DNA of 64,000 bases, from NCBI GenBank assembly GCA_963930775.1, contig OZ005689.1, positions 11,563,079 through 11,627,078 of the forward strand, given 5' to 3'. Below the pieces are notes generated by a model, which saw only the letters and a program-made list of their open reading frames with translations, made no database searches and was not told where the DNA came from. A program made the position numbers and the translations under genes. The first letter of the stretch is position 1. Each line of letters begins with the position of its first letter. Source of the stretch: Cliona cf. orientalis (taxonomy: Eukaryota; Porifera; Demospongiae; Clionaida; Clionaidae). This document shows positions 8,001 through 53,815 of the stretch, one piece after another.

Positions 8001-11000
8001 TTGAAAACTAGGCTTTTTGTGGTAGTTTCAAAGATCTGAATTATGTGAATTTCGTTGAAAACACTTTGTTTAAAAGTTCTGACAACATTTGATGACCACC
8101 GCTGCCTTCTCCGCTTCTTACCACGCTCTCGATCAATGAAAGTGACAGCAACTGTTTCATTTCAAGAAGATGTGTGTAGGTCTAGCGATAGTTCTTATAA
8201 TTCGATCGACTCATCACTATATAGTCATAGTAGGCTATCAACTACGCTTCTTGGCTTTACTTTGTACTAGATCTGCTGCATGATCTGGCACACACTTGGT
8301 ACTATTATAATATAATGCTGTGCAATCAGTATTAGTGCATTCTTGTGGTTACTCTCTATAATACCAACAGTATTGCTGGCATACAAATTTGCAACATGTA
8401 GACGAGCTATACTCTGTCACTACTATTCCTTTAATAGTGTAATAAATCTCATAGCGCCGAGGGTTTAGCACCAGTGGTGTTCATTGTGGCTGAAACAAGC
8501 TGTAATTGGCTGCTGCTAAGCTGGCTTTCATGTACTGTAATAATGTGTGACCAAATACAGCCAAGGCTACACAAACAGGACTGCTACTATGAGCACTGCG
8601 CTCTATATAGGTACTTCGAGCCATAACTCGGTGAGTATGGGATAGCGTTCTAGAACCTACAAAGCAGATTTTTATGTAAAGGAATGACTCATCTATTGAT
8701 CTAAGTCAAAAGTGAAAATTGAAAGTTATCACTTAGCCAACTATTTTGGCCTAGCTGTATCTCAGATTGATCTGCAGTGCATTATACATAGTTTCTCATG
8801 GACAATCACATTTATGCAAATATATTATCAGTTCTAAATGTGACCAGATTTGAGAAAAGCCGGCATATATTATTGTCAAAACACGCATATGGCGCAATGC
8901 GCGTTTTTAGTATCAACAATCAAATATCAAAGTCCAGTTTTTGTCGTATTCATGTCCAAGAACCCTTCTACTAACTGTTGCCACCGCCTATGGAGGGTAA
9001 ACGTAAGATACCAATGCGAAATAAGCCTTTTATTTTTTGTGACCTACCTAGTCACTACAGCTGCCATACAGAGAGCCCATTGCTATGGGCATTAACTAGA
9101 ATTCTCTATCTAGATACAGCTAGATTCCTTGAACTACTCACGTTCGCTCACTCTTTTAGCTTCTTCGAAGAACAATCGGTGACCATTGTCAACATCGAAA
9201 TGCGACCCTTGCTTGATCTTGACATTCATTCTGAACGGCTCCGCCCAGGTCAATTTAATCTATTTCCGGTTCACACATAGTATATGGCAATGCCATACAC
9301 ATGCATAGCAACACCTTTAGACCGTAATTTCTTGATTATTGAGGGTGTGCTGCGATCGCAAACAAAGCGCTCTAGCTCCACAGCCAAGCGTGCCATGTGT
9401 CTCAGACTTGGATGCAGGTTAGCCCTATGATACAGCTATTCAAATATACAGCTACGTAACTAAATTTTCACGGATTGACCAATATGGCGGGTTTTCTCAG
9501 ATCCGGTCACAAATATCGAGCAGGACCATGTCCGGCCAACTATAAGAATTATTTGACATGCTATCAGTGTATTATGTGACCATCTATGAGAAAACGCGGC
9601 ATATGGAATTTTTTTGTGAAAGTTGAGTTTGGTTTTGTCAGATCTGGTCACATATATTAATTTTGTGTATCATGTTGACTGGTAAAAGCGAGTGGATTTT
9701 ATCAAAAGTAAGGCTACCTATATGTAGCTAGCAATTGTAGGAATACATGACATGTGTATGTATATGCATACTCTTGTGGAAGGAAGGAATATTTTATCAC
9801 AAAAATCTATTATTCAGATACATCACCAACAGGACTGATTGCTGGGATTATAGGTAATTAAGATGTCTATGTATAATATTATGTTTTTAATTTGTATAAT
9901 TTATATGTATGACGCATATTACGTATTTGCTTGCATAACAGCTAGTGTTGTGTTTGGCATTGCTGTGGTTATGGTCGTGATATTACTTATCATGTTGAAA
10001 AAGATAAATAAAAGGTGAATACGTTTCTTATATCGTTGATAATTGAGTATTTGTCACTCTTTTTGTCCCATACACATTGTTGTATACTATTATTCAAGGA
10101 AAAAGGCACAAGTGCGTGTAAGTTACAAATTTTGAGCATGTACAATTAGCCTCGTGCCCATCCCTATTCCCACCTTTTCAATGTTGCACGCAGAAAAGGG
10201 GGAAGGTTTAGTCGATTCACTCATGTCCAGTGTTGCCTTCAACTGTCTAGGATGGTCTCAAGAAAGTCCTCAGTACCCTGTATCAGGATCTGTCTGGGAT
10301 ATTCTTTATGCCACTAATTACTTCCTTTGTACATCCTAAGACTGTCCTGGGATGATCATATTATACTCTGGCTGCTGATCTGAAGTTCCAGGACACTCCT
10401 GGGATGACTGTCCCAGGACGGTCCTAGGATGTCCTTACATTCCAGTTACATGTACATGTACCTGTGTTCCGGAGGATTCCCTGCATGTAGACATTCCAGG
10501 ACGGTCCTGGGACATCCTGTTACCTATTGTCTGCAGGATTCCCTATATACATCCCCGGATAGTCCTGGGATGTCCTTGCTATCTGTATTCCAGAGGATTC
10601 CCTGTAGACATCCCAGAATGGTCCTGGGATGTCCTAGCTTATACATTCCAGTTACCTGTGGTCCGGAGAATTCCCTGTATACATCCCAGGACCGTCCTGG
10701 GATGTCCTTACGTTCCAGCTATCTGTATTCCGGAGGATTCCCTGTAGACGTCCCAGGACGGTCCTGGGATGTCCTTACGTTCCAGCTATCTGTATTCCGG
10801 AGGATTCCCTATAGACATCCCTGGACCGTCCTGGGATGTCCCTACGTTCCAGCTATCTGTATTCCGGAGGATTCCCTGTAGACGTCCCAGGACAGTCCTG
10901 GGATGTCCTTACGTTCCAGCTATCTGTATTCCGGAGGATTCCCTATAGACATCGCAGGACAGTCCTGGGATGTCCTTACGTTCCAGCTATCTGTATTCCA

Positions 11001-14000
11001 GAGGATTCCCTGTAGACGTCCCAGGACAGTCCTGGGATGTCCTTACGTTCCAGCTATCTGTATTCCGGAGGATTCCCTATAGACATCCCTGGACCGTCCT
11101 GGGATGTCCCTACGTTCCAGCTATCTGTATTCCGGAGGATTCCCTATAGACGTCCCTGGACGGTCCTGGGATGTCCTATAAAATACATTTATTTATTATA
11201 GTATCTGTATGTTTCCAAGAATTTCTGACATAATATAATTTGTGGTATACAGTAATCTTATCATACATAATATAATATAATAATATTATGTTTAAATAAT
11301 TAATGAAGCTTTTTCTCTAGCCGTCTATTGTGTAGGTCACATAAGTAGATAATAAAAAAGAGGAAGTGCTCTTGTTTCATGTGCCTGGTGATTTTGGCAT
11401 ACCTTGACAGCCACGAAAAGGTTTGCTCGCAAACTTGCGTATCAACCTAATAATAATAATAATTATAATATTAGATTATGTTTACATATGATAATTATTA
11501 TGCTTGACTGATTAGTATACCTGTTCTAGAGCTTTGAACTTCCGGGAATCACATGTCTTTAAGCACCATGGGTCAACATGCCCCTTAATGTGCATTTTAT
11601 CAACCACTATTTCTAGTGATGACAACAAAGTAGCTGTTGGTGTTAAGCCTTAATTGTCGTAATGGATTTCTTGCATATTTCCTGAGATGGCATCCATCAT
11701 CATAACAAATAAACTCTATAATGGAAATATAAAATGAAATAAAAACATGACCATCCACTTTATGCAGCTAGTTACCGCAGATCATGAACTTTTCATTATT
11801 AAATATTTTCCGTGTTAGCTTGAGCCACCAAGATTAAGAATACTGATTACTTTGAATAATTATTAGTATGTAGTCAAGTTGGTCATGAATATGAAACTTC
11901 CCAAACAAAATATTTTTGCACGAAGTATTCCACAATCTGCGGTACCTACATTTATTTACCTAGTTTTGATGCTACTTGCTTGTTCCTTGCACAAAAATCA
12001 TGCAGGGTACCATACACTTGTGGTAGTGACTCTGAGATGAATAACTCGGACACTATTACCACAATGCCACATGGCCATATGCCCGCAAGTATTCCTACAT
12101 GTAACAATATCGTTAAAGTTATAGGGTAGATGCACTCTGAAAGTTAACAAAGACAGAAAAGTACAAGGCTAACCTGCACTTCGTTCATTTTGTTTGACAA
12201 GTCAGTGATTGTTCATCATCATATGTTAGTCTTAGTGGGCTGTGCAAGCACAGGACAAAATGAAGTGACAGTAGTGAAGATGTTTTGATTATCATACCCA
12301 GTTGTTTGTCCCTTGTTGGTTGTAGCCACTTTTTGTCTTTTTTCTGGTGGGAGTGATGAAGTTTGTGGTGTTACATGTGTCTGTATTGTGATCGTCTTTT
12401 TACCACCAAGCTGTAGTGCTGATTCTACTGTATCAATTTGCATCTGATTATCATATTCCTTAATCAATGCTAGGGGCACATCCTTTGCAGCACACCAAGT
12501 AGTGTCCGCCTCTGACATACCAAGAATTACAACCTGCATGGTAAAAATTAAAATTGTGGCAGGAATTAGAATAATATATTTCTCAAAAATAAAGTGCACT
12601 ATGTCTGGAATTAAGTTACCTTGTAGTACGTATTGGTTCTTGTCACTTTTTTCTCAAGTATCATGGAAACGACAGCTTCCTCCCTATTGTGGCCACCTAT
12701 ACTACCTTCTTCCAAATCAGGTGAAGAAAGCGTACAAACACGAGGACTATGAATCGAGCAAAACCTGGACTTAAAGGATGGGGTTCTTTGACATCCAGTT
12801 GTCACGTGCCCAGGAAGACCTTCATATTGAACAAATCCCGCTGCAGTTGCTTTACAAACCTCTCTGTTATTCTTCATGTTTCCATCAATAACTAAAGCAG
12901 AGCAACAGCCGGGTACCTTGCATGTGTGTCCTGTTTATAGCAGTGATATTAAATTTGATAATCATTCGCAGCCAAGTACCAGTCGCAAATTTAAATTGCA
13001 TTCTTTGAGAGGCCCACTTATAATATTATGTGTATGCCAGATTTGCATGATTCCTCATAATAATATGCTATATTATTATAGTGGGAAGGTTTTTAATTTG
13101 GTGAGTTTGGTACAGATCACCAAATTAAAAACTCGCCAAATGAACTTAATGCATGCCCGCCTATGGCAGTAAGCATTCAGATTGCCAAACTAAACTTTGC
13201 CAATACCGAGAGCCATTTCGCAAAATTAAATCCTTGCCAAAAATTTAATTATCACAATACAGTAACCAAATAAAAGATGTAGGAAAATGTTTTTGCTGAG
13301 CCCAGATACCACCATACCACCATACCCTGTAATGCAAAGGTAGCTATACTTGGTAGTAATTTTATCCAGTATCCATCCGTAAATTTTCAGCTACATGAAG
13401 TGTACGTGTATTATGGCAAGCTGTATTATCAAACATTGTAACACTGGCTTAGAGCACCATGCAGGGTTTCATTTAGGGGGTGCAGGGAGGGTCACTCGCC
13501 CCCCCCCCTTAAGAGTAACCACCATCCATACATGCAATACATGCACAAGTAAATATTTAAACGGTGAAAGTGTCCAAAGCGGCAGTTTTGCTCATTTTTA
13601 AGCCATAAATTAGCTGAAGCTTCACGCTACCCACAGTAGGAGACACATCCCACATCCTTGCAACATTTGACTTGAAATAGAGGGGAACCAGTGGATATTA
13701 CTGACAGACTTTCCCCATCCGAGTGTTCAGAAGCCACCAGAAACAGTTTCAGAGGTTGAAACATTAAAACATTTTCCTGGGGGAGCATACCCACAGACCC
13801 CCCTAATATAATAAAGTTAATGAGCACAACGTCATTCTTCATGGATGGAAAACATACAATAGTCTTTGCCCTCCCCCTTAACTCTGGAATTGTCGCGTTT
13901 GCCCCAACCCCTTGACAAAAATCCTAAATGAAACCCTGCCATGCTTTCAAGCAACAACCCAAACGTAATACAACTCACGTGCATATTTCTCACTGAATGC

Positions 14001-17000
14001 TCTGTGATATGGACAAACCAACTGTATCATTTTGGCATCCAAATCATCGTCTAAACAGATTGATGATATAGTATCTGGATACCACGATGACACCGTGAGT
14101 ACAGCATAGAGTAAATGAGCAGTTTCGAGCCTTCGCCGGTCCATTTTTAACCTCCTTGTCAAAATGTCTTTTCCAGGTGCAACACTGTCAAGGAGTAATT
14201 ATGATATTAATATTTGCCCATCATGCATTAATACAGAACAAAAAATTAGCATGACAAAATTAGCTAGAGACAAGCACAATATTTTAGCATTGCTTTGGAT
14301 GTGATAGGTGGTTTTGTTACGCCAGGATAATTCTGGTGCCGGCATAATAAAGTTCAAATATAAGGCAGTGGTTGACAGAGTATACATGCACTATCATAGA
14401 GTATTAGTGAGTAGTGCAGTATATGGCTTATCTTCGCTGATCATAGAATGTGAGTACCGTATTGTCTCTAATTTAACGGACAACTCTAATTATCCGGACA
14501 CCATTTCGAATTATTTTTTTACCTCTAATTACACCGGACAGTCAATGAAGTTTGAGTTTTTGTTGTTCTAATTATCCGGACATCGTTGGACAGCTCACGC
14601 TAGCGTGGTACTGATCGAGCAAAATTTGCAATGGACAGCTGCTTCTTTGGTGGTAATGAAGGAGGCGAGCTGTTCTCTTTCCCATCATGAACAGGGAGCT
14701 CCAGGTACCGTCTCATTTTCTCAACTCTGCAGCTACTCGATCGTACGTCCATTTGACCGAATGCGCATGCGTCAAAGCGTGTTCTAATTCATCGGACACT
14801 TCGAACGCCGGCTATTTTCGTGTGCTCTAATTATAGCGGACATTGGCCAAAATAATTATTTTTCTGGTGTCTGTTAAATTAGAGATAATACGGTAGTTGA
14901 AATAAAGCTATCAAAAAATACAAGTTTTTATCAGAACTAAGAACACAACGGGTAAATAATGAGCATAATTAGCTTAGTGTTGCGAATTAGAGAATAGTAT
15001 GCAACTGAGTTCCTGTCTATGTGTAATGTTAATGCGAATTGGTACTGCAACTACCGTAGTGTCCCAGGTAAGTGGCCATGGGTGCTTAAACATACATTGC
15101 GATTATGGCCCAGCGGGTGCTTACCCAGGACATAATTTCCATATTATGTTTGTACAGTATTGACCTCTTGAAATGAGGTACATGGGCATTCACCCAGGAG
15201 TGGGCACTTGCCCGGGATACTATGGTATTGAATTAATTTTCATGCCCATCCACTATCTATGGTGCAATTAAATTTGCCATGATAATATTATTATAGCAAA
15301 AATATCTTGAGATAGTACATGTGCATCTGTGGTGATATCTAATTATGACCACATGTGAACTTACCTGCTAGATGCAGCCTCATCTGAGTCAGGTGATTCT
15401 TGTTCATCATACTCAAAGACATAGTTGTAAATATCTGCACGCTGTTTGTAGCTCACCTGCCCTATCAAGATTTCAGCATCAAGCTTTTTTAGTAGCTCCA
15501 TCTGAAAACCAGTTTCTCGTGTAGACATGAAGTACGGTAGAGTATGCCAGTTATCATTGTATTGAATAGTATCGCCTAGTTATAGCATAATATATTATAG
15601 AGCAATTATGGTTTCATCTCAAAACAATTATAATCATCACCACCCACCCCCCCTCCCCCCCCCCAATTTTTATAGCAACTATGCAAAATGATAGTTCCAT
15701 ATAGAGGGAAATTTCGAGGGAGAAAACTTTCACAGAATTCGCGATTGGAGAACCACCCATTTAATTTAAAGATTTCTCCACAAAAGTTTAGGCATGTCAC
15801 ACCTGATTTAGTATTCCTCAAAAATTTTTTTTGCAAAATAATTATTAATGCTAACTTCCAACTCTGTGAGAGCTTTCTCCCTTGAAAGTTTACGCTGTAT
15901 GGTACTAACCGTTAGTTACCACCACTGGCAAAAATTGGATAGACTATAGTGTCAGTAGTGAATAAATAAAATGCCGCTTCCCACCCCATTTTTAGAGAAG
16001 GTGAATGAGAATCAAGTATGTTAATAATTAGTTTGTGGCCTTATTAATTTTGGAATAAAATATCTATAGCTATTCTTCACATCTGTGCATTGAGTTAGAT
16101 AAATGAAATCTGGCCTACCCTTGAGCTTTAAAGTTGTGAGTACACTGACCTTGAGAATAAAAGTTATAATATTGGACAAAACCACAACCAGATCTGTATT
16201 TTGAACAATATTTTCTGTAGTGTGTGGCTGGTAGTGTACCATCTGAATCGGTATAAATTATCACACGACTGGGTCTATCCTTTCTTATGCACAGACTTGC
16301 TCCACAGGTAAGGCAGGCACAGTTGGGAGAGAGGAGAACAATGCCCATGGGCTCCTTCTTTGTTGTAGCAGGAGTGTCGTAGAGCTCTTTCAGTAGGGAT
16401 TTATCACTGACAAATGCAGCTTCATTAAGAAAACGAAGATTCTGCATTAAGAGTTGCACATCACCTTTGGAAAACTGCAGCCTTGTACTTGATGCAAACT
16501 GTGCAATCACTTCCCAATAGTTGGGCATATCAGTAGGCAACTGAGCAGTTGCAAACAACATTTTCCTCACTTCGGATAAATATGACGCACTCTTTAAAAT
16601 CTCTGCTACTTTGCTCATCCTAGTTGCTATCTATAACTGCCTTATTCTATAATGAGTGCACCTACATGTACTAATCCCACATATCACATGCAGCTTTCAT
16701 AGCATCACATGGCACTTCCAATCATCTTGCTAAGGTCACATGATCTTTATGCTCATAAATAATTAATAAAAAATTAATTAAACATCTATGATCACATGAT
16801 CTTCATGAGCACATGTGCAGTACTAGTGTCTTGTACCATCTGTTTATGTTGCAAGAATGGCTAGTTCCACAGCTGAAACTAAAGCTCGATTGTCTACTTG
16901 CTGGGAAAGTGATCTTAACTGGACTTTATATCCCACCAAAGTGAAGGAGGTATAACTTTGTGACTTGACTATAGGAGGTAAATGCTGTAGTATAATATTA

Positions 17001-20000
17001 TGCTTGCTTAATAGATATGCAATGCAATTGGAAGTGCAATGAGCATGCCAGCTACAGCTGTATTGAGTGGTCTCCTTGTGATTGTCAGTTACTTTCTCGC
17101 ACACTCTACTGTTGAAGTAGATGGCACACAATGGGTAGAACCTGTCATTGTGTGGATAGCAATTGGGATGCCCACAGGAAGCGGAAAATCGAGTTTATTC
17201 AACTACTTCCTCACACTAATTCGTCATCAGTGTAGTCGGAAAGATATTCATTCACCATGGACAGTGGAAGAGTCGAGCTTTGAAAAAATGGGAGCCCTAA
17301 TGGCTAGCAATGACGCAAAACTGTTGGGCCTTTTTGACGAATTGAGTTCTTTCCTAACACAAATCAACTTGTATGGAAGTAAAGGTATCAGTGATTCTCA
17401 TGATATGGCCACCTTTCTCATGCTCTACAATGGTCACCCCTGGACACGTCGGACAGGTAAGTGTCATTGAATGTTATGGAAGATTTATACTACTTTTGCC
17501 ACCTGCTCTCATTTGGTGTAAATTCCATCATTAGTGCAAATATTTATGATTACAACAGAATATGGAGTAAAAGTAAAAAAATACCCTCAAATAGCTAACT
17601 TTAAATTTTAGTATCAACAAGAACTTTATTATGGTGGAATATGGTATCTAAGTTCTGGTATCTATAAAGGATCAATAAAATTTTTAACCCTGCATGAGGA
17701 TCATTTAGATGTGAATACCCGTTATGGTAGAGGGGCATGCATTTCATGGTCATTAGGAGCGGATGAAATTCTCCGTCTTGTGTAGCTACAGTTAGGAGTT
17801 GAAGGGTGATAGTGTGTTCAACCTCAGATTGTCTGGTACAAACCATTACTCATGCAGAGTCCTGGTCCAAGTGTAAACCACTAAACCACATGCAGTGGGT
17901 ATCATACCAGATAACTCATGCAGAGTTATGGTCCAAGTGTAAACCACTAAACCACATGCAGTGTGGGTATTACCAGTTAGTTCACAGAATAACAGTGTAC
18001 GCTACAACTAACTAGAGCTCTGTAGAGCACATACCCCGCGCGCTCTGTAGCCACTGTAGCGTAGTATTGCAACACTCCAAGGCATATACCTGTATGTAGC
18101 TGTTTCATGACGTGACGACCCTTTCCAACACAGTGTTTGAGCATGCGCAGTCGTATCCGCATACTATTATGCTAAAACAGTGGGTGTGGTCGATAAACCA
18201 CAGGTATGTTGAACAGAAAATGTACGATTTGTAGCACTAGCAAGCCTTTTTGAGAAATTCGAAGCGCGTACACACTAGTTTTTCACCGATACCTACCGAT
18301 TGGCTGTGCTTACAGCACGCACAGGTGCCTAGAACTCGAGATCTGGCGATTTTCATGCGACAACAACAACAACGACGACTACGACAGACGGACAAACCGA
18401 TTGCTTTATCCCTTGCGCATGCGTGCGGGGTAATAATACTAGTGGGAAATGAATCCTACTGATCCATTGTAGGTTACTGAGTAACACAATCAATTTTTGC
18501 TCATTGTATAGTTACTGGTCATGCAAACTTCCAAATGGAGCGTACCGCACTGACCGTTGGGGGTTTTACGCAGCCTAGTGTTGCAAGGACCATCATTGAG
18601 CAAGTTGCTGGTGCTGAACGTGGCTTCAGTCAGAGATTCCTGTGGTTATTCCCAAAGCCCATGTTTGCCAAGTTTCATAGCCTGAAGCCAGTACTACCAG
18701 ATTACAGCGAAGCTATAGGTATGTAAGCGCACTGAACTAGATAATGTGCACATGTACTACTATTTACGTATGCATACAGTAACACTGCTTGTGACTTTGT
18801 GGAAGGATGGTGGTGGAGATAAGCCCACACAGAGAAATTGGATTTTGGGTAGAGACAACTCGCACTTCCATAAAAATTTTGATAAAATTCAGGAGGAGCT
18901 TGAAGAGCTTTGTGGATTAGATGATCTCTTGACTGGAGTGCTGAGTAAATCAAAGGGCCAGATATTGCGATTAGCAGCTTGTATGAATGCCCTCTTTAGC
19001 TTGGATCCATTGCACCCACTCAAAGCTGAACTCTCCCCCATGAGCATTGACGCTTCAATTGATTATGTCGAGATCTGTAATGAACACACAAGTGTGATGG
19101 GTGGACGAAAAAATACTACGTCACCACTGTCGCGTAAGTTGATAATCCTAACTACATGTATGTTTACTTTCGTATGCCGCCACAGAGGTGACAAATTTTA
19201 TTATTGTTAGGCATCCCAATGCATGCTTTAATTTCCTCCCTCTTAGAAATATGTGTAAGTTAATCAGCCGCAATGAAGTTGGTCAAGTCTTGGTAATAAG
19301 TATAATCTATTAGTCTGTGCTTGGTATTTCCAGTCATATTATAAAGCTAGAGTGAAATCATAGTAGCTACTGTAAATTGTGAATATTTCGTTGTTAAAAT
19401 ATTTTCAGAAATTGAATGCACAGCAATAATAGTATGTGCAATATTAACGATAATGTGATACAGGGTCATTTACATGTCTGAAAATTATTTAACACGAAAA
19501 ACTATCGCACAAAATATTTGACACGAAATATTCACAATTTATAGTATAATATTATTATGGCCATCAACATTATGGTTGCACTCGACCTTCACTTGACTTA
19601 AACGCAAGTCGTATATGCTTTGTCTCCCACATTTTTCTACTATGATGGCTTCTAGCTAAACTATCGTCCTGCTTTATTGCTACCTTAACCTGAACTTTCA
19701 ATAGCTGGAGTCGGTCAATCACTTGCACATTCTGAGTCTAGATTTATTTAAGCAATGAACTTATTAACCAGACTTTTTGAAGTATTTTATAAAACCATTG
19801 GTAATGAAACACTATATAGGTGAATATTGTGACCTGTACTCCTTCAGTTAGATTTTGAATGCATTTCCATACCAACAGCACAATGCTCAAGTATGGATGG
19901 AAAGTCTCCTGAACAAATTGCTGCTCATTGCCTACTCCTACCTGGCAATCATTTGGATATGAGTACACTTCTGGATAAGAAGAAGTTCAGAGGCTACAAA

Positions 20001-23000
20001 AACAGAGAAGGTGCTCTGGCTGGGTTTAGTGTTCTACAAAAGGATAGCCTTGGCACTTTGGAGAATGCTAGCAAGCGAGGAGTCCAAAAGGTAGATGCAC
20101 TAGCAGCGGAAATAATTGACTTCGAGACACACACTGTGGTAAACAAGTTTGCTAGAAAGCGATATCAGAAGCCTTGAATTTTGTGCATTTTCACAGCTAG
20201 TATTGTGTACATGTACTATATGTGTGAAATTTTCGAAATTTCACCAAGCCCAGCTACCTTTATATTGCACGAAAACTTGGTGGAAAATTTTCACCAAGGT
20301 GGTAAGGGTCGCCATATCCTCTCTGCAATCTATAACACAGGACAAACACTTAACGTGTTAAAATTTTTGCCAATAAGAGCAGGCGGCGAAATTGGTGAAA
20401 ATTTTCTCCTGGTGAAATAGTGTATACAGTACTATGCTAAGCACTCCTTATTCGTCTCATGCCTTGACAGTATTCCTTCAGGAAGCGACCACTGCCTGCA
20501 GATGATGATGACAATGGTAAGACCGAGTTGGCCCAAAAGCTGGCTAAATATAGTGTGCCATACCCAGAATACGTAGCTGCATTTGAAGACGGCAACCATC
20601 CATGGTAATGGTGTAATAGTATACTAGCACTGTGATGTTAAAGTAATACACTGCAGGCAACTACGAAGATCACCCAGGAAAAACCAGCAACAATGAGTCA
20701 ACATTTATCATAATTAGAATTTGCTACATCACAGATGATCACCTATTTAACCATTTTTCCCAATCAACAACTACTCAAGCAGCCGGCAAGATCATATATT
20801 TATTAACCCCCTATGACTGAATTAACTATAGCTGTAGTTACAATATTATTTATCCTGGCAATATACTTAATGACCATCGAGTGATGATTATCTTGGTATG
20901 ATCCCAACACTTCACTCCAGCACTGGGTAGTAGCTATTTGAGCGAGATGGGGCTGTCACATAGAGGTTGTATGTGAGAGTATTACCGGTACGTGGAATTC
21001 TTTTGATATCAGTCCTGGGTTGTATGCGACGAAGTCTTGCTATCCAGAGCCTTCATACCATGATCACACATAGATAGTATGTGAGGTATCCCCTGGGACT
21101 TCTTAGTCGGATCCTCCAGACGTGTGCTATAGGTGTAGTATGTGGGGTGTCCCAGGAGGATCCTGGGACTTCTTAGTCGGATCCTCCGGACGTGTGCTAT
21201 AGGCGTAGTATGTGGGGTGTCCCAGGAGGATCCTGGGACTTCCTAGTGGGATCCTCCGGACGTGTGCTATATGTGGGGTGTCCCAGGAGGATCCTGGGAC
21301 TTCCTAGTGGGATCCTCCGGACGTGTGCTATAGATGTAATAATATGTGGGGTGTCCCAGGATGATCCTGGGACTTCCTAGTGGGATCCTCCGGATGTGTG
21401 CTGTAGATGTAATATGTGGGGTGTCCCAGGAGGATCCTGGGACTTCCTAGTGGGATCCTCCGGACACGTGGTGTAATATGTGGGGTATCCCAGGAGGATC
21501 CTCTGGACGTGTGCTATAGATGTAATATGTAGGGTGTCCCGGGAGGATCCTGGGATTTCCTAGTGGGATCCTCCAGACGCGTGCTATGGGTGTAATATGT
21601 GGGGTGTCCCAGGAGGATCCTGGGACTTCCTAGTGGGATCCTCCGGACGTGTGCTATAGATGTAATAATATGTGGGGTGTCCCAGGATGATCCTGGGACT
21701 TCCTAGTGGGATCCTCCGGATGTGTGCTATAGATGTAATATGTGGGGTGTCCCAGGAGGATCCTGGGACTTCCTAGTGGGATCCTCCGGACACGTGGTGT
21801 AATATGTGGGGTATCCCAGGAGGATCCTCTGGACGTGTGCTATAGATGTAATATGTAGGGTGTCCCGGGAGGATCCTGGGATTTCCTAGTGGGATCCTCC
21901 AGACGCGTGCTATGGGTGTAATATGTGGGGTGTCCCAGGAGGATCCTGGGACTTCCTAGTGGGATCCTCCGGACGCGTGCTATGGGTATAATATGTGGGG
22001 TGTCCCAGGAGGATCCTGGGACTTCCTAGTGGGATCCTCCGGACATGAGGTATAGGTAATTACGTGGGGTGTCCTAGGAAGATCCTGGGACTTCCTAGTG
22101 GGATCCTCCGGACACGTGCTATGGGTATAATATGTGGGGTGTCCCAGGAGGATCCTGGGACTTCCTAGTGGGATCCTCCGGACGTGAGGTATAGGTAATT
22201 ACGTGGGGTGTCCTAGGAAGATCCTGGGACTTCCTAGTGGGATCCTCCGGACGCGTGCTATGGGTGTAATATGTGGGGTGTCCCAGGAGGATTCTGGGAC
22301 TTCCTAGTGGGATCCTCCGGACGTGAGGTATAGGTGCATGTATTATGTGGTGTGTCCCAGGACAATCCTGGGACTTGCTATTGGGGTCCTTCCGCGGATG
22401 TGAGCTAAGATGATCCTGGGACTATCTATGGGGATCCTCCAGGCAATGTATAGGTATATTCTCCCTAGTAGGATCCTCTAACTTTAGGGTGAATACATGC
22501 ATATGAAGGAGGCCCAGGATTAGCCTAGTACTTCCTATGAATCTTGGGTCTATAGGCTCTGTGAATTATCCCGGACATCCTAAGTCTATCCTAGACAGTT
22601 GAAGGCAACACTGGACATCACTCGGTCGATTTGGTGATGTCAGGATGCTTATACTTGTGCACGCGCTCGCGCTGAAGCGCTAGCGCACGCACGCGTGCAT
22701 GCGTGGGCAGCAAGCGCAAGGTAACCAGGAAGTCCAGACCACGACCAGGTCAGTTCAAACCACGTCCATGTGACATCACCCTGACATCACCAAATCGACC
22801 AGACCTTCCCCCTTTTCTGCGTGCAACATTGAAAAGGTGGGAATAAGGATGGGCACGAGGCTATGTACAATAATATCAGTGTTTGTCATAGGCACAAGAG
22901 CAGCAGCAGCAGCCTGGTGATAGCTTGAAACCACTCACTACTCCTCCCGGCAAAGTACAAGTAAGAGAATACCTAAATAATTATAAGTTATTACTGGTTA

Positions 23001-26000
23001 GCATAATGTCAAATAATAATATTAAATGTGTGATTGTGTGAGGTCATATGTAGTGTGAAAGCAGCCATTTGAAACTGTGTGTACATTTTTATTAACTTGG
23101 CCTCATGTCTGGACCCTCTTGGTCATGAGAGGAGGAGAAGAGCCTGATATACCAGTAGCGGATCCAGGATTTTCCTTAAAGGGTTTTTTTGTTATATGGT
23201 TGCGCACAAAGCGCGTACAAAATTTTAGAAACCACGCCCATTTTTAGTGAACCTTGCCCATTTTGATTGTTTTCAGAAAAACTACCAGCCCAATCGAGCT
23301 GCTTTCGAACAACTTCTCTGCTAAGGTGAGCCATAGCAGCAGTTTGCTTAGATCTGTAGCCAGAGAGGGAGTTCCATTTCCTGAAAATCACAGCCACTCC
23401 ATAAAGTGCTTGTATTTCAAGTCTGCCAAGAGGGGTTTTCACGGAAACTATGGAAACCTGTTTGGATCCGCTACTGTATTGTTTGGACATGCTCCATTCT
23501 CATACGGTAGGATTTTGAAACTCATAGCTACATGCATATATATGTTAGTGAATTTGAGAAAAGGGGTAACTTCGCACAAAATACGATTTTTTGTCACTTT
23601 TCAACCTACCACCATTTCAGCCCAAGGCTCCAGACTTGGTTTATTTGCAGTTTGTGCCTTCTAGCCTCCAGTGAGCTACCAAAGAGGGGTATCAAACGCG
23701 ATCGACGTGCACACTCGCCCTACCCATACCGAAAATGGGTGCAGCTCGCAGGTTGCAGGGAGTACGTGTAGCAGGATCATTAAAGAATATTCATGCAAGG
23801 TTTGAAGTTCGGAGCTGCTATGGTTCCAGAGATATAAGCGTTTTAATACAAGAATTCGGAAAATGTGCGAAGTTATCCCTTTTCTCAAATGGATCATATT
23901 CATTATTATTTTTCTACACCACCGCCAGGGATACTGCTGTTCAAGGAGCTATTGCGCGATTTTTTGTATGACATGCACAGTTTTTGACAAGCGAAGGCAT
24001 CCACAAGGCAGAAAAAAGAGCTATACTTCAGTATTTTTTTGGAAGAGCAACACTAGTAAGTCAACTCACCTATTTACAACTGTCTTGGCACTTTCCACAC
24101 TTCATGGGCAGCCTTTTAGCAAGGGTACTACAGGAAGCCATGTATTTTGAGTAGCTGGAATGTTCTGGAGCCTGGTTGGTCCCAACGCTAGTGAAACTTC
24201 AAGCCACTATGATCAGAAACGCTTCTCCTGCTTGCAGCTGTTTACTTGCATAGGGCAGGGCTAATTTGACTTCACAGGAAGGGTGGAAACCACAGGCATA
24301 ATAAAGGCAAACCCAATAATTTACTCCGTGGTTCAATGCTAGCTACAAGTAGTATACTCAAGTGGGACAAGTTGGAGGACACAGTCACATCACAATCCCA
24401 GAAGTTGATGCATATTGATGATTACTTTATCATAGAAATGAATGTTTGATGATGACATGCCAGCTAGCTAAAGATTACAAGGATTTAAATTTCCATTCTT
24501 ACCCATTGTTTAAACCCGGCCATATCTAGTCTGTTATCATAGCCATGCACAATAAAAAAAAGTGTGCATATCTCCCAGAAATAAAGGAGGATATCATATT
24601 TAGGATCAGGTTGTCAATGAAAAGTAACTGAAGGGACAGATTAATTGAGACGGCCACATGTGAATGCCTGGCTGGTGTTGTTCCCATTGGTCGGTGAAAA
24701 AGGGTTTGGGTTAAATTTTGTGCACAATATTATGCACTGGAGGTAGTTTGCTGAATAAAGCAAAAATATTATGCTTACCAATTAAGGTCGTGTACATCTG
24801 AACTGTAAAAGTGGAATCAGCCACCAAAACAAAAAATTAATTAGACACATGTCATTTGCTGTTGATAGTATAGATTAAGAATCTATGAATACTTTAGGCA
24901 TAAACTCATCAAAATAGTGATCCATGTGTAAAATTCTACATACGGTAGGCTATGAAATACCAAAGCGGAAAGCAAGGTCATTCTTCATTATGGAACATCT
25001 CAGTCAACACAAGGCAAGAAAGAATTCATTGAGTAGAATTAAAGCTCTAGGAGCACCTCCATTTTCAGTAGCTATACGTGTAGTGGATTTCTTAATGCTA
25101 GCATTCCTATACTGCAAGTGATTTACCAAGAAACTGAAAGCATTGTTAAAAGTTTATAGCTCTCAAATCCAGTATAGAAATGAACAGCATTGTCATTGTT
25201 AATGAAGAGCTCTATGCTAAAATTTAATGGTGTTTGCAAATGGATATATAGCTCAATCTGTAATAGTTGGTGCATTAGTAGTAGATACGGGTAGATCTAA
25301 TGTAAAATATCACTAGTAGCAATAGGAGTTAAATATGATGATTCATTACTAGCAATATAGATGGTGATTGATAATCATGTGTAAGCTAATGGTTGTTAAC
25401 AATCTGAGATGGGGGGTAATTATGCAGTGTATATACCTCTACCAAGGAAATATTATTCGAGGGAGATCCTTGTTTTTAAAATGTGTACTGCATACTCTGC
25501 TCTGTATTGTACCTTCTTCTCATCGTCTGCACACTACAATGTTAGCCATGTCCAGCGGCAACAATTATCTTTAAAGGAAGGGTGTAAGCGGTTGGTACAG
25601 CCAGGTACAATATTATTAATGCATGCATGAGTCCATCATTGTATGCAGGTTTACCCTTAGACATGCAAATACCCACAGGAATTCAGAGCGGTTGGTTCTC
25701 CATCCTGTTAGCCATACCCTTATCGTGCCTGTGGTTTCCACCCTTCCTGTGAAGCCAAATTAGCCCCTCCTATACAAGTAAACAGCTGAAAGCAAGCAGG
25801 AGGTGCCAGGAGAAGTGTTTCTGACAAGGGGGGGTGGGGTCACTACCATAGGCACCGTATCCAGAGCTGCGACTGGGGTCAAAACAGTCAAGGCACTTTT
25901 TAGGGATCGGTCAAACGGTCAAGCAACCGGTGTTCTGGGCCCTATCTCCAGCATAGCTAGGCGGCCAAGATTAATTGCCGAGATTTTGTGCATGCGCGGT

Positions 26001-29000
26001 TAGTCAATGGTCAACGGATCAAGGGCAAAAATTCGTCATGGTCAAGTGGTCAAGGCCATTTTTAGACGGTCAAATATCTTGACCCCGGTTGTAGCTCTGG
26101 ACACAGCGCCTATGGGAGTGACCCCCCCCCCCCCCTTGCATAGTGGCTCGAAGCTTTACTAGCGTGGGGACCAACCATGCAGACTCCAGAACACTCCAGC
26201 TACTCAAAATACATGGCTTCCCTAGTACCCTTGCTAAAAGGCTGCCCATGAAGTGTGGAAATAAGTGCCAAGACAGTTGTAAATAGGTCAGTTGACTTAT
26301 TTTAGCGTTGCTCTTTCAAAAAAATTCTGAAGTATAGCTCTTTTTTCCGCTTTGTGGATGCCTTCGCTTGTCAAAAACTGTGCATATCATGTAAAAAATC
26401 GCGCAATAGCTCCTTGAACAGCACTACCCGTGGCGGTGGTGTGGGTTATATAGACCCATTGCACGTACAAGAAAAATCCGTAAAATTCCATAAATTCTCC
26501 TCCAACGGCCGCCATGTTGGAGTACAAGCGTCTATGTAAACTTGTACTAGCAAGCGCTAAATGGTGCTGTTGCTCTATCGATGTGCATGGACGCCAAACA
26601 ACTAACTGATATTTCAAAGCACGCTGTGGTTAGTCTAATATACTGCAACCATGAGAAAACGGATGCTTACCTTCTTTGCAAACGAGCAGCAAAGGCAGCC
26701 TCTGTACATTTTTGCCATAGAAAACGGCTCCAGTTGTCCTCCAGGGCGGCCCACTGCGCGCGTCCCGTGACGTCACATGCAATGGGTCTATAGAACAATA
26801 ATAACGAATATAGTCCATTTGCTCACATGTACTTGACAGTTCACAAGCCACATATTTATGTCTGTATTTTAATACCTTGTTGCTGGATACTTGCCCTTAG
26901 TGATGTTATTATTGGCCTATGACCTAATCAGCTTGTCAAACATCGTCACCAATGTGGTGTTTGAATTGAAAGATGCTGATGTTGAAAGGACTAGTAAAGA
27001 ATCTGATTAGTTCCCCCTTTGTTATAGAATTTGTTTAAAAGTCCAATGATATAGTATAGGAGAGTGAAGATTTCTTGACTCTTTCATATTATACTTCTGA
27101 AACTGAGCCTTCATAGCTTGATTAATGTTCAAGACTGTTCATTTCCACCCCCCCCCCCCAAACATAAACTTGTCCATGTATCCAGTAAGTTGTATGGCAA
27201 ATTTCACGGAGAGCATGTGCATATGCATTTAGTGTTTGAAACAAACGAAGAGTCTTGGCGGCCAAGAATCTTCGTTTGTTTCATGCAGATAGCAACTGAG
27301 AACGATGTAACTTCATTTATCTATCTGACCCTTTCTCCTCCCCTCAAAGAGCATGAAGACGAAGTTAAGCTTACAGCAGCTCAACCTCTTTTGATTTTGA
27401 GAGAGGCGCAGGGGGATCCCCTGTCCCACCAGTCAGGAGTACAAGCCCTTGTACCCATTAATTTAACTTTATGGCCATGGGCGGAACACTATCCTATAAC
27501 CATAATGTGATTATACACTATAATGATTTGTTCCTGATCTTTTTTCATCCACTAGAGCTGACAACGATAAACCTATAGTTGGACATCGACTGCTGTTTCT
27601 TCGTCGCTATAATAGTACTTTCTCCATTTGCACCGGATCCGTTCTATTTACACTCGAACAAACCATTGCCCGAATTTATTTACTTTCTATTTAACACCGA
27701 ACGGCGATATTAATAATTACTTTTGGCCGTTCGGATAATTAGAGCGAGTATGGTAGCTTCTTGAAGCGAGATAGGCCGATATTCGAGATACTACTGTCAC
27801 TGTTGTACGTGAAAGAGCGCTCAGGAAAATACATATATGTATGCAATCTAATTAGAATAGTAGGTGCAGCTCGGCTACTATTGATTTTTAACTAGAGCTA
27901 CTGAAGTATGGTTACCAATTGAGATCAAGGGCGGGTGGCTATCAGACTGATACTTAGTGGGTCCTCTTTCGTGAGGATATGGTAATTAGCATGCCTGCTT
28001 CCTGTACTTGTGTAAACAATGGCTTCCCTAACCACTCTCTATACTAGTACTGTACATATCTATGTAAATTGGTGGTCTCGTTGCTATGTGATATTGCACT
28101 CTTTCATTAGTCACATATTCTTACAAAACAAAGGATTTTAACTGACAGAGTGAGTGATTTATCACTTATAAACTACCCCTAGGATACAAGGGTGAAGTAG
28201 GATATAGAGCTTATTATCCTGATCCTCATGCTGTATAACCCCTCAATTATCCCCCTCTCCCTTTCTTTCTGCATGATAGCATTGATTGGAGGGGGATCAT
28301 GGCATTCAAGGATGTCGACTATTGCCATCTGATGAATACCACTTGGGCCCATGATCTCTGCACTTCCCTGGCTATTTGACGTAACTAGAAAAAAAACCGG
28401 CCAAATATGACACAAATACATGGGTACTATAGCTAGTGTATAGTTTCTATACTTTAATTGGCTTATGAAGTTCAGTACCATATACATGTACGTGAAAATA
28501 AAAAATTTCGCCAAGCACAGCTACCTTTGTATTGCAGAAGAATTTGGTGGAAAAACTTTCCGCCAGTAATGGTTGCCATGCATATCCTCTGGCATGCAAT
28601 TTTGAATACATGCAGGACAAGAATTTAAATTTTTGCTAATGAGAGCTGAGAGTAGGTGACAAAATCGATGAAACGTCTCTCCAGGCAAAACAATTGTGTA
28701 TACGGTGTCCATTTTGTAATCAAAGAAACAAGGGTGAGACAGAACAACTTACGTTACTGTAGGAACCTGAGCTAATAGTGCAGGGGGCATAATTGCAGGA
28801 TTCTACATTAATATTAATATTATTAGCATTTGTTACAATGAATTCATATGAATGCTATACCCTAAGAGGGTGCAACTGCCAAGGGAGGAGATTCTTGCTG
28901 TACAAATACGATTTCATGTATGTATGTTGTACTGTAACAGTGCTACCTTGATTATACAGATCTTGTCTATAAAGAATCTTTAGATTAGGCCATATAAAAT

Positions 29001-32000
29001 AACTTACTTGATTCTCATCCCCGCCCGTCCCAATTTTTAGAGGCCGCCTCTACGAATTTTATTGCTATCGCGCGTGCGCAGTAGCGACCCTTTACCAAAT
29101 ATCTCGAAAATATGCTCCAGATACTGCTCTTTCTAGTGTCCTGATGAGTAAAAAATAAAAATAAAATGCCTCCTCCCGCCCCTATTTTTTGGAAAAAGGT
29201 GGATGAGAATCAAGTAAGTTATTTTATATGGCCTTATCCTGACTTTCTTGTGACCAGCAAAATTCATACACTAGTTTACGTGCACAAGTATCGTAGTGAC
29301 AGCTGAGGAATGAGCTTGACAGTTTTACAGACTTGTCTTGGCCAGATTATCTCAATATCATTTAAGAGCTATATCGTAGTCATGATGAATCAGGTGAGGA
29401 AGGGAACTTTAGTTATCTTGACTATTAAATCTTCATTTTGATATTCCAACTTGTAAAAGCTAACGTTCACTGTCCCCCTCCCCCTCCAGAGTTAGTATAC
29501 CATGATTAAAATGGAAGGTCTGATTTGTGCAAGAGAATTGGCATTCTAGGAGTTTTCATAATGCATCGTGTAAACACTTTTACTAGGAATCATTTCAATG
29601 CACTTATTAACCCTCGCCGCAAAGCGTAGGCGGAGGGTTACTGCAATCGTTTGGCGATTTTTGTCCGTCCGTCCGTATGGTAAGGGTCGTCTGAGAGAAA
29701 GTACGCATCTGAGGATTACCAGGCATCAAGGAAGAGTGGTCACGTTAAGTCCTGCCCAGTGGTATAATAGTGTGCAGCTGTGGTTGCCATTCTGTGCCTT
29801 GCTGGTCATTTGTCAGTGCAGTGACAGTGTAAACAGGCAGTGGCTCTCAAGTGCATAATTGAGTTTAAGTAGTCACGGAAGGGGCCTTCCCCCTAGCCTA
29901 TATCATGCACTGACTCTGAAGAAAACTGGAGTACCTCAGGTGCAGGGTATGTATATAGTATTGAACTAGATACATACTACCATATTATGGTAGTATGTAT
30001 CTAGTTCAATACTCCTTATATTGAGCAGGCATACACTCTGAAATAATGCTAGCTACTATAGATCTCTATATGTGCATGAGTCATGCATGCGTGTAGCGGT
30101 GAGGGTTTTGCACTCCTGTGCATTCATTTAGGTTGCATTCTGTTAGCATAATGACTTCTGAATATATACAATTTGGGCAGTAATATATAAGTACTCTTAG
30201 TAAACGCGTATGTGTACAAGTACAGTCAGTAATGGCATGAGTGAAAGTAAGTGCTACGAGTACACGTGCTATATAATTGTACAATGATTAAAGTGTGTGA
30301 TTAATTGATAATAGTATAGAATTTTCCCTAGGCTATAGCAGGAGTACCGATTTCAGAGTAAGAGTATACACTTACATCAGTAATCTGTACTATGTGAATA
30401 ATGTATAATTGTAACTAATCATTACCGTACCCTCGCAAAAGAGGGCACATGGCGGTGCACCTTACATTGGGCCAAACCATGGGGGATGAGCCGATATTCG
30501 AGGTAACATGCAAAAATGGATACGATCTCAAGGTTTTTGGCCAAATATATAATTGTGGGATAAGATAGTTTCTGACTATCTTCTAAGCCATTCTTTGTTG
30601 TAGATGACAGCTGGTTTGGAGTAGCTAAGGGGGTACTGAGTAAAGATACATGTTCCGTAGAAGGGGGTGCTCAAGTCCCTGAGCTCACCCTACAATTTGG
30701 GCTCAATTACCTGCTAAGACCTAAGGTGTAATCAAATATGCACTGCTCTGGAACGTGCATGCACAATCGCTATTAAATAGGCATGGTTACTATTGTAAAA
30801 CATGCATGATTTTATGCTGAAATGTGGCATGAGATGATTCTGTAGGTGCTCAACAGGATCTTACATCAAGTACAGTCCTCATAGACCAGCCATTTTGTTA
30901 CGGCTGCTGTCAACAGCACTGTGAAATACTGACCCGATAGCCAGCCACCTTTGCTAACCGTGCTTGAACAAGGCTAAAGTCAATACCATACTTAGTCAAA
31001 TATATACAATGCACGATCCAATGTAAGATAAGAAATTTGATTTTTGGAATTTTTATGAACGGAAGATAGCAAAGTAAAATTTATTTTATGTGAATCCAAT
31101 CTAATGCAAGTGTGTAGTACAGGCAGCTATACAGAGGCATTTTGTCCTAGTATGTGCTAGTGGCCTTGCCTGGAAGCACTATAAATATACCCAAAGTGAC
31201 ATTCTTAAATTAATCTTTGTACTATCAGCTACAAGAAGACAAAGCGACAGGGGAAGTGGTACACTGTTCTTGGAAGTGTATCTGTATCTTTTAATTAAAT
31301 TCATTTCCTGGAATTTTAATGAATCCAGTCTAACATGGTCGTTGTTGAAATTGTTTAATTTGCATAATAATATTGGAATAAGTGCACTTAAAGTAATAAG
31401 GTGGCGTGGGTAGCATTCTTTCATATCTATCTACTTCGAATATTAGCCCATCCCCCAGTCTAGGTCCAATGTAACATACACCACCCATGGGCCTTTCCAC
31501 AAAAGTACTGTATACACGGCACATACCAATAATGTAATAATCTCTTATGATAGCTATGCTGTATGAAATATCTTAGGATCCTGGCTCAATTGAACATGAA
31601 GGGCAATGGCTCAGAGCCAGAGTGGCCTAACCCACAAATGTTGAGTTAGCTTCCCTAATCTTAAAAACATGTTTAAAATGCATTTCATTAACAACAGAAA
31701 ATTAACATTATTTTTTTGAAAATTTGAGTGAATTGGTAGAGTAGGGTGTTTGGTTTTTAGTCCATTTTAAATTTGAGCTTTTTAGACAATTTCCCACATT
31801 CAATTTGGGGTTAGGCCACTCTGGTTCTCGACCCTTCATTTAATTATTGCTATGCATATGCATTGATGGGCACTGTCGATAGGCGTGGCTACAGTGGCCT
31901 ATGAAAAGGCACTATTTGTGACGCCCGTGGACCGTATCCCTCGATTTGACGCACACTGAAGCCAGTTTTTTCGCCGAATTCGATTGATTCGTTGTGATTA

Positions 32001-35000: not shown

Positions 35001-38000
35001 GTAAGTACGGTACTTGGATTTGGACACCTGTGTTCTTTTTTCAGTATGTGCTTTCATTTTCGCTTTTGCTTTAGAATTACTATAGCACTCATGTCAGACG
35101 CTCCTAATTTCGTACACTAGGAGTAGATAAGGGGATAGGAGTGTTGAACCACATACTAACTACCGTATACTTTCTAATTTAGGTGCCCCTAAAAAACAAT
35201 TACAGATCGCACAGGCGTCTCCAATTAGAATCGAAAAATTGACAACCAGGTCAAAGGGCGCAAAAATTAGGGAGGCGAGTAAGAACTGCAATTAGAATGG
35301 TTCTGGAAGTTTGGCCAGAGCTCAAGCACTATCACTACGTAGTACTACCGTACTTAATCTAATACTACGTATGGAAAAAGAATAATAATTTCAATTCTGA
35401 AAAACGTGCGCTTTTCTGGTAAAGGTTGTCAATTGCTCCAGATATACCTTGGTGTCTGTACATGGGGAGGATTTAAACACTACTTGTTGTGAAAGTTTCT
35501 ATGCATACGCTTGGAAATCCTTGGTCCTTTGTTATAATATACATGGGAGTGAATCACGTCAAATTCACCTAATTACAAGGGCACTTCACGGCGTAAATCT
35601 TTCCTAAATAATTGGTTAGATGTGTGTCTATACATGGGGAGGATTTACGCATTTCTCGTTAAATACCAGTCAGATGGGGTTTTACTCTATAATGAAAAGT
35701 ACATAAATTATTCCCACATATATAAACTTCAAAAGATTAACTGTCAGGGAATTTACGCCATTAAAGAGAGACATGCATCCTTCCCATGAGTGACTCATGG
35801 GAAAAAAGACGTAAATTAATCCCATGAGTCACTCATGGGTTTGGTGATGTAAATCGTCATGAGTCACCCATGGGATTTTCTTCTATTTTACGCAATTTTC
35901 TATCTGATCTAGCTTTTGCAGAAGTGGAATGAACCACCACCTCCAGAAATCAGGAATACGCATCAATGATCACAAATAAATATTCACCAGTGGGAAGAGG
36001 ACCACAGAAATCTATATTCAGTGTGTACCATGATTTAGATGGTAAAAGTGACATGAAGAGGATCTGAACGACTTTCAGGCCCATTGGCTTGGCATGCTAG
36101 ACATTTCTCAATCTTTAGTTTTACCATGTTGTCGATTCCAGGGAAACACACTTTCTCACATATTATTACCTCCTTGGTAGCCTTGGTGACCTTTTAATTA
36201 TGTGCGATAGCTACTGTTTGTTCACGGAGTACCGTAGGTATCACCGTGAATTCTGCTGCCATATAGGAATACCGTATTTCCCCCACTATTAAGCGCATGC
36301 GCTTATATCTCTACAGGAAGAAAACCTGGCTTAATAGCAAAGTGCGCCTAACTAACTAAAAAATAAAGGACGCATGCGCGTTCGCGATATCATTGAGGAG
36401 GCATAGCCAATCGATCGATCGCGTGATCATTCTCGTTGCTGCATTCCCCCCAGCTCGAAATGGCGCTTGTTGCTTGAAGAACCTGAGAATCAACAGTAGC
36501 CATCGTTATTTCGACTAACTTGAAAAGGCTGGAACCCTGGGCAAGCAAGCAAGCATGCAGATATCGAGTACAAGGGTCACTTACAACATGCGAAATGCGC
36601 CTATTAGCGAGTGCTTAGGTCAACAAAATAGCATGCGCTTAATAAGGAATATGCGCTTATAAGCGAAATGCGCCTAATAATGAGAAAATACAGTATCTTG
36701 GAATCATTGCTGATCGTTAGTTCACCTTGGACTCTGTTGAATAGTCTCAAATCTTTGTTGACAATGACTCGAAGCAACATGTCTCAAAGCAAGTCTACGA
36801 ACAAGTCAAAGGCTAAGGCAAGGTCCCAGCCCAACCTAAGCAAGCAGGACACCATTTGCGACGGTTGTTGTAGTGCGATCATCGACAATGAGCAAGAGGC
36901 GATCCAATGTGAGGGATGCTGCCAAAAATGGTACCACAGGCTCTGTGCAGGGGTCTCAAAATTCCATTATGACATGCTCGCTGACAGTCCCGATCCTTTC
37001 ATCTGCTGGCTGTGTGCAGATTCCCTGCGCAAGGCTGCAACCCGGGAACTCCAACAGGAGTTAGCCGAGTTAAAGATAGATTTCGCAACTGAACTTGAAA
37101 CTAATCGTTCCGAAATAGCCACGTTAAAAGAAGAGAATGCCACTTTGCGAGCTGCTCTAAGTCAGTTGAAACAGCAACAGCTACAGAAGTCCTCTGAGGG
37201 AAGCAGTGAGTCCTTGAACTCTACTGCAACTGCGTCTGCAGGGAGCAGTTGGTCTAAGGTACAGCAATCGCGCTCAAGGATGCCGCGAAGACCTCAGCGA
37301 GAGCAGAATCAATCTGAAACCACTTCACGTGGATCCTCCGCTGGTGAGAGCCAACGTCGGATTAATCACCCCCCGACCAAGAATCGTGTCCAAGTTCCTG
37401 GTGCGAGAAAGATCTGGGGCACCCACCCAAATGCCACCACGCAAGCTGTCTCCAAAACAATCGCTGCACTAACAGAAATGTCCATTGCAAGTATTTCCAT
37501 TAAGAGGAAGTACAAAATGAGCCCCCAAAGCTCTGGAGGAGGCAAGTTGTCAAGGTGGTGGTTTGTTATAAGGGGTGATGAAGAAGCTATGAGACAGCTA
37601 GAGGGAAAATGGAATGCAGTCGTAATGCAAGTTGGCTGGAAGCTGGAGCCTCTCTACACTTTCTCAGATGTTGTGGTGACCCATCAATCGTCTGATGACA
37701 CTGTGCACAATTAGCCTGCTACCCTCCTTCCCCAACTCCCCCTGCCCTATCGAATCCCAATCCTCCCAACTCCCCTAATCCATCTGACTCGGCCAATAAC
37801 GTTTCTTTTTTAGAGCCTGTAATCAGCCCTGCTCCTCAATTGGAGCATGTACAGTGAGCATATCTCATTATTCAGTTAAGTTAAATTTTTTATCAGTTTT
37901 GTATTTCAATGCACGCGTTTATTGCCTAAGATTGACGAGCTCAGGGCCCTTACCTTAGTTTACAAGCCCCACCTGATCTGTATTGTTGAAACCTGGCTGG

Positions 38001-46040: not shown

Positions 46041-46148
46041 AACTCCTGTTCGCTATTATCTAATGTGGCACCAATCTGTAATCCGATTGGTTATATTTGG
46101 TAAATGGTGATAGGGCTGGGCTTCGCTGCTGTGGGAGGGTCATGCCCT

Positions 46149-46825: not shown

Positions 46826-47399
46826 AGGGAGATATATGCCAGTACATTCTCTGTTGCAGGGGGTTTACCCATTTGCAAATTGCTGGTACAATATAATTAT
46901 TGCCATTTTCAATACTCCTGTGATGATGGGGAATACCCCAAGTAAATAAACCCTATCACCGTAGGTGATCTTTCCCCAAATCACAGGATATCCAAATTAT
47001 CTACATAATACAGTAAGTCTGAGAACACACAGCATAATTGAATATCATGCAAGATGTTATGAGCATATGCCAATGCTTGTCTTTATCGCTACCCCCCGAC
47101 TTGAGTAATGTTATTCTTGGATGAGCTGGGATGAAACGCTGGCCCATATGCTGTGAGGTAGCCAAATTTGCCTTCTACACTGGCTGCTCCTAGTGTTTGT
47201 ATTGTTGCTTCCAGAACTCCTAGCTCCGGTAGAGGCGGTTGTGGTTGCCTCTATGCTAAAAGAGCCACCTGAGTGCTATCCCTGCCAAGGTAGTTCAACG
47301 GGATGTGTATGCGTATGCTACAGTCTAGGAGAGGTCCACTGCCAACAGTATCAGCTGCTATTGGCTTGCTGGGAGTGAGTTGAATTGCATAGTGCATGA

Positions 47400-53800: not shown

Positions 53801-53815
53801 TATACACTGTAATAA

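Follow-up and report, generated by a model that had tools for sequence, protein, structure and literature searches.

A predicted KDZ-superfamily DNA transposon with a DUF3987 partner gene in a former 49-bp intron of the sponge Cliona cf. orientalis

Transposons of the KDZ (Kyakuja-Dileera-Zisupton) superfamily are large, have been recently active in some hosts and are poorly understood. In the available portions of the publications cited here, Zisupton and a Dileera element are described with 8-bp duplications (PMC12730594). The elements KDZ1-KDZ3 of Cryptococcus are ~9-11 kb long with termini of 139-241 bp; Cryptococcus neoformans KDZ1 reaches ~11 kb with 241-bp termini and an 8-bp duplication, and KDZ2 and KDZ3 have duplications of 4-8 bp (PMC12810828). 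In Ectocarpus, many families of giant DNA transposons (KDZ elements among them) possess additional genes, nested inserts are found in most, and the transposase is frequently a predicted pseudogene (PMC12477816). Here, we describe a 64,000-nt stretch of contig OZ005689.1 from the sponge Cliona cf. orientalis (assembly GCA_963930775.1, positions 11,563,079 to 11,627,078 of the forward strand), hereafter the window. An element of 12,717 bp at 10147-22863 of this window is very probably a cut-and-paste KDZ-superfamily DNA transposon, which was inserted once into a 49-bp intron with duplication of 8 bp. Beside the predicted KDZ transposase gene lies a gene for a DUF3987 protein.

The insertion, its ends and the surrounding intron comprise the following features.

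10118-22891, + strand: host intron, 12,774 nt now and 49 nt minus the element and one duplication copy
10139-10146: left target-site duplication TGTACAAT, directly outside the left end, read from the sequence
22864-22871: right target-site duplication TGTACAAT, directly outside the right end, read from the sequence
10147-10253, + strand: left terminal inverted repeat of 71 bp (68/71 identical), with a 31-bp inverted-identical block at offsets 77-107
22793-22863, - strand: right terminal inverted repeat, 71 bp
22618-22792, no strand assigned: fold-back insert breaking the right terminal repeat, with 24-bp arms at 22624-22647 and 22777-22800; ends approximate
10326-11197, + strand: left subterminal array of a 67-bp unit, 8.9 copies at 10578-11177 (Tandem Repeats Finder), earlier units degenerate
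21092-22412, - strand: right subterminal array of a unit of ~70 bp, in the orientation opposite to the left array

The TGTACAAT copies at the two ends match perfectly over 8 bp. If the final A on the right is counted as host sequence, the shared flank becomes 9 bp (ATGTACAAT), and the register is thus ambiguous by one base (8 or 9 bp); the symmetry of the termini favors the 8-bp register. Reconstruction of the empty site gives an intron, GTAAGT...TCATAG, of exactly 49 nt with GT-AG borders, and the flanking exons (10099-10117 and 22892-22960) splice into one open frame downstream of a transmembrane-like exon. The 49-bp intron therefore became 12.8 kb, yet the coding frame of the adjoining exons remained open. 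An earlier sequence-only reading of this DNA had proposed 71-bp inverted termini with three mismatches, the same 8 bases outside both ends, and one insertion into a former 49-bp intron. The termini are borne out by direct reading and blastn, the 8 bases are the TGTACAAT pair listed above, and the empty-site reconstruction agrees with the former intron. A single insertion event is well supported by the termini, the duplication, this reconstruction and the paired inverted subterminal arrays. The same reading had assigned the flanking exons to a receptor. Among the features tested, the transmembrane-like segment is the sole basis for this name, and no Pfam domain in the host gene rises above its cut-off: none was found at cut-off in five upstream open frames (the best match was a sub-threshold E-set domain, 0.0034), and none at E up to 0.1 on the 3' side in the three + strand frames of 22892-29793.

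Inverted alignment of 10147-10217 with 22793-22863 covers 71 bp with three mismatches, at positions 18, 62 and 64 (blastn E 2.5e-27). The inverted similarity exceeds these 71 bp, since the 31-bp block at left offsets 77-107 recurs identically on the right, where it is displaced ~169 bp inward because of the fold-back insert. Further inside, the palindrome CCCAGGANNNTCCTGGG is common to both subterminal arrays. At up to two mismatches, the window contains 33 such sites, all of them inside the arrays (14 left, 19 right), against an expectation of 0.1 per 64 kb from a first-order Markov model (20 simulations), a contrast that is weakened as evidence by the sites being tandem copies and hence non-independent events. 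Exact sites number 16, four on the left and 12 on the right. When the array units were aligned inverted, the score was 24, and the best of 500 dinucleotide shuffles scored 17; aligned directly, they scored 15, which was reached by 3 of the 500 shuffles. Both ends belong to one element. Two unrelated miniature inverted-repeat transposable element (MITE) ends might instead flank ordinary genomic DNA, and short MITE-like repeats do occur within the element. This arrangement is extremely unlikely, as it would have to account for the 71-bp and 31-bp blocks at both ends, inverted arrays sharing one palindrome, and an identical duplication on both sides with a transposase gene between.

The predicted transposase gene was modelled as follows.

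11300-16618, - strand: KDZ transposase gene, nine modelled exons, all eight introns GT-AG
16618-16150, 15515-15365, 14184-13979, 12930-12620 and 12533-12298, - strand: transposase exons 1-5
12239-12174, 12094-11960, 11715-11521 and 11446-11300, - strand: transposase exons 6-9
11300-11715, - strand: exons 8-9, matching the KDZ catalytic core in its C-terminal half (profile positions 116-217 of 217)
16150-16618, - strand: exon 1, with a weak CxC5-like cysteine cluster under the cut-off

The element is assigned to the superfamily by its KDZ domain, an assignment with which its size and the 8-bp duplication are consistent. The Pfam KDZ profile (PF18758, Kyakuja-Dileera-Zisupton transposase; curated cut-off 26.6 bits) matched the C-terminal part, X-joined at a frame break, at 3.4e-9 and 37.2 bits, and the whole X-joined transposase model at 33.3 bits. 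The last piece alone, which does not cross the frame break, also exceeded the curated cut-off (7.7e-7, 29.5 bits). As judged by this profile, the element encodes a predicted transposase of the KDZ superfamily. YDDGCH and CEQTFSW, which we take to be the candidate second and third catalytic motifs, lie inside the Pfam match, and IDGNMKNN is presumably the site of the first catalytic aspartate. CxC5 is a cysteine cluster that accompanies KDZ transposases, and a chromo-domain-like match in the transposase gene was sub-threshold as well (0.012 to 0.066).

Several observations weigh against this assignment. The KDZ match is limited to the second half of the profile, the CxC5 match in the N-terminal exon has an E of 0.0066-0.01 and 16-17 bits (cut-off 26.9), and the exon bearing IDGNMKNN, queried alone, had no Pfam match even at E 10. 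In addition, Kyakuja has 7-bp duplications without terminal repeats (PMC12730594), and the available portions of PMC9297572 report no detected duplication for the Zisupton of Pristionchus. In the element described here, the terminal repeats (71 bp, 68/71) and the TGTACAAT pair agree with what is described for Zisupton and Dileera elements and not with Kyakuja. Elements of the hAT, P, Merlin and MULE types also yield 8- or 9-bp duplications. Since duplication length cannot tell superfamilies apart and a 9-bp register is possible, such an element might have taken up a KDZ-like gene as cargo. This possibility, already disfavored, is very unlikely, as none of the corresponding domains appeared in the 10 element open frames scanned or in the spliced models.

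The transposase frame of this copy is apparently broken. A frame break lies near 11650, and no GT-AG splice model that avoids it was found. A possible second break near 12187 is present in the preferred model and is model-dependent: an alternative splice from a donor inside exon 5 to the acceptor at 12094 avoids it at the cost of losing a stretch. An exon 7 start at 12134 was discarded for a phase mismatch; one of the Pfam query pieces (piece B) was built with this start. The frame breaks could be assembly errors. Unless they are, the broken frame makes the copy probably non-autonomous, and an enzyme from an intact relative would be needed to move it. We lean slightly toward regarding the element as a non-autonomous or dead copy that was moved by outside enzymes and is decaying, its coding content irrelevant, a view that is compatible with KDZ identity. 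The break near 11650 with no GT-AG model around it, the possible second near 12187 and the fold-back insert within the right terminus speak for it. The perfect 8-bp duplication, the termini at 68/71, an open DUF3987 gene and the possibility of assembly errors speak against it.

These data also bear on the age of the copy, which had been called fairly young. The perfect duplication and 96% terminal identity (68/71) suggest a recent insertion, with the reservation that terminal identity is no clock for age. A fresh active copy is made less likely by the frame break, by the fold-back insert and by intronic MITE-like repeats, and the first two make "young" doubtful, so that the claim stands weakly. 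Nested inserts can, however, also be carried along by a family.

Upstream of the transposase gene, a second gene is oriented head to head.

16857-20177, + strand: DUF3987 putative helicase gene, five exons, 473 aa, all four introns GT-AG
16857-16949, 17015-17456, 18512-18718, 18780-19133 and 19852-20177, + strand: exons of the DUF3987 gene
16619-16856, no strand assigned: gap of 238 bp between the two start codons of the head-to-head genes

The 238-bp gap is a candidate bidirectional promoter. No internal stop interrupts the coding frame in any of the five DUF3987 exons; the other two frames contain 3-14 stops each in the four longer exons, and 1 and 5 in the first exon. An alternative last exon at 20471-20608 would give a protein of 506 aa. 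The protein matches Pfam DUF3987 (PF13148) at 1.6e-28 and 100.3 bits (cut-off 27) and the phage protein family PHROG 2373, "DNA helicase", at 9e-9. A plasmid search with the protein at E 0.1 returned two records (loci L002 and L003), and PF13148 matched both, compared with 1 of 14 genomes in a control. Aligned with these two homologues, the protein of the element has a Walker A motif, GMPTGSGKS, and a Walker B motif, LLGLFDEL; the homologues are 21-23% identical over the alignment, in which the Walker B, QP and QR motifs are shared and the Walker A region is aligned. One homologue is located next to a PriCT-2 gene; the element that holds the other also carries an integrase gene and a gene of the BT4734/BF3469 family. 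A search from the three-sequence alignment yielded six viral-contig relatives (23-31% identity) among 76 stretches, and the DEL, QP and QR motifs are present in all six. The protein gave no match against phages at E 0.01, and single-sequence patterns confirmed no relatives in the viral contigs and genome contigs.

In the available portions of PMC5862659, DUF3987 domains are predicted to be helicases of mobile-element replication because the domain replaces known helicases next to primases. We infer DNA unwinding by the DUF3987 protein only from this prediction and PHROG 2373. Tentatively, and with slightly less than even confidence, we consider that the protein may be an ATP-driven DNA helicase or translocase assisting transposition. 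This proposal depends on family profiles, and other observations count against it as well. One plasmid homologue, that next to the PriCT-2 gene, has a degenerate Walker A motif; an NCBIfam search gave no match; a solved-structure search gave no credible relative; and the predicted structure of ATPase exon 2 alone had a mean predicted local distance difference test (pLDDT) score of 37.5 and was not used. Moreover, a DUF3987 protein is called a primase in the available portions of PMC10803314.

The DUF3987 gene may instead be passenger cargo that a KDZ transposon captured by chance and that has no role in transposition. This explanation is a serious possibility but falls short of being likely. 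Accessory genes are frequent in KDZ elements (PMC12477816; TET/JBP genes, PMC12730594). On the other hand, the gene is open, spliced and head to head with the transposase gene at 238 bp, and its type, a predicted replication ATPase, occurs in other mobile elements. That this one gene has stayed open next to a broken one does not suffice as proof of selection. Because one copy was examined, the cargo explanation stays: the gene is either a family trait or was captured by this single copy, a point that also weighs on the proposed transposition role. Among the searches for related copies, a 25-mer of the terminal inverted repeat had no match in the genome contigs, and an array 32-mer and KDZ piece A had none in the viral contigs. 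A 17-mer of the terminal repeat matched once in the viral contigs and was taken as a chance match, as its flanks do not extend the repeat.

For the KDZ transposon with a transposition-assisting DUF3987 protein, the following mechanism can be envisaged. The KDZ transposase, probably dimeric, would bind the terminal repeats and the arrayed CCCAGGANNNTCCTGGG palindromes; the arrays are candidates for the sites at which a dimeric protein of the element binds, and the transposase is the likeliest such protein. The enzyme would then pair the ends, cut the element out and insert it with an 8-bp stagger. DDE-type cut-and-paste transposition with such a stagger would be expected from the KDZ family. 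The DUF3987 motor could open DNA at the ends or the target, aid excision, or act in repair synthesis that fills the gaps a large element leaves behind. The copy described here would depend on an enzyme from an intact relative. A bolder and unlikely version is an animal KDZ lineage with a two-protein machine, in which a DDE transposase and a co-transcribed replicative-type helicase of prokaryotic mobile-element origin would act together, with the palindrome arrays as loading sites and transposition partly replicative. If a helicase-like partner proved to be fixed in the element, it would provide a clue to the excision or repair of very large cut-and-paste elements, and a predicted prokaryotic mobile-element replication ATPase would be at work in a eukaryotic transposon.

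Other repeats and open frames in the window include the following.

14455-14895: 441-bp unit resembling a MITE, its inverted ends 28 bp long and 93% complementary, within transposase intron 2
17845-17976: two 66-bp copies arranged head to tail (88%), within DUF3987 intron 2
19368-19546: MITE-like unit of 179 bp, its inverted ends at least 24 bp long, within DUF3987 intron 4
15964-16023, 18337-18438 and 20236-20287: stretches inside the element similar to right-flank sequences (78-89% identity)
36632-40451, + strand: probable non-LTR (long terminal repeat) retrotransposon with a PHD-like finger (0.046, sub-threshold), Exo_endo_phos_2 (1e-7) and RVT_1 (3e-26) in successive frames
695-1168 and 53722-54066, + strand: open frames with a similar stretch, YYNRQIKI...IRMAIPYRTAK... 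(by eye)
46063-46946: repetitive sequence in which both strands have several open frames (readings rich in His/Met/Gln and in Cys/Ala), probably a minisatellite

The resemblance of the three short internal stretches to the right flank suggests that dispersed repeats lie within the element too, and the stretch shared by 695-1168 and 53722-54066 suggests a dispersed repeat at both positions.

The sequence-only reading had recognized no described family in the element. The superfamily is in fact known, namely KDZ, and what stands of that claim is the combination of KDZ with DUF3987, which was not found in the literature searched; the family itself may be in Repbase or Dfam. Judged by titles and the starts of abstracts, no paper among those listed links DUF3987 to a eukaryotic transposon, and nothing was found on DUF3987 with sponges or on Zisupton with Amphimedon. 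The DUF3987 partner gene within a KDZ transposon is what is new.

As in KDZ1-KDZ3 and Zisupton, the element has a KDZ domain and terminal inverted repeats, and the CxC domain of such transposases, predicted to bind zinc, may have a counterpart in its sub-threshold CxC5-like cluster. It shares the 8-bp duplication with KDZ1, Zisupton and a Dileera element, and a multi-exon transposase with the Zisupton of Pristionchus. In contrast to KDZ1-KDZ3 and Zisupton, it has an added divergent DUF3987 gene and a CxC5-like cluster in place of CxC1, and its continuous termini, 71 bp or ~107 bp when the right-side insert is discounted, set it apart from KDZ1-KDZ3. Paired inverted palindrome arrays are present here and are not mentioned for KDZ1-KDZ3 or Zisupton in the available portions of PMC12810828, PMC12730594 and PMC9297572. 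With its extra gene, inserts and probably damaged transposase, the element is in a state much like that of the giant elements of Ectocarpus (PMC12477816).

Enzymatic accessory genes also occur inside the fungal TET/JBP-carrying KDZ elements, in which, however, a dioxygenase with a presumed role against silencing is the accessory (PMC12730594), as opposed to the predicted DNA-motor ATPase described here. KolobokH and Kolobok-1_CCri likewise combine a DDD/E cut-and-paste transposon with a helicase, which is on the complementary strand in Kolobok-1_CCri, but they belong to another superfamily with a TTAA duplication and have a RecQ helicase without DUF3987 (PMC9587614, as far as its available portions describe them). 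The DUF3987 ATPases of bacterial mobile elements (PMC5862659, available portions; plasmid loci L002 and L003) have the Walker B, QP and QR motifs and the aligned Walker A region in common with the protein of the sponge element. Unlike it, the plasmid ATPases are prokaryotic, are encoded in a single open frame, and stand beside PriCT-2, integrase or other genes and not beside a KDZ transposase.

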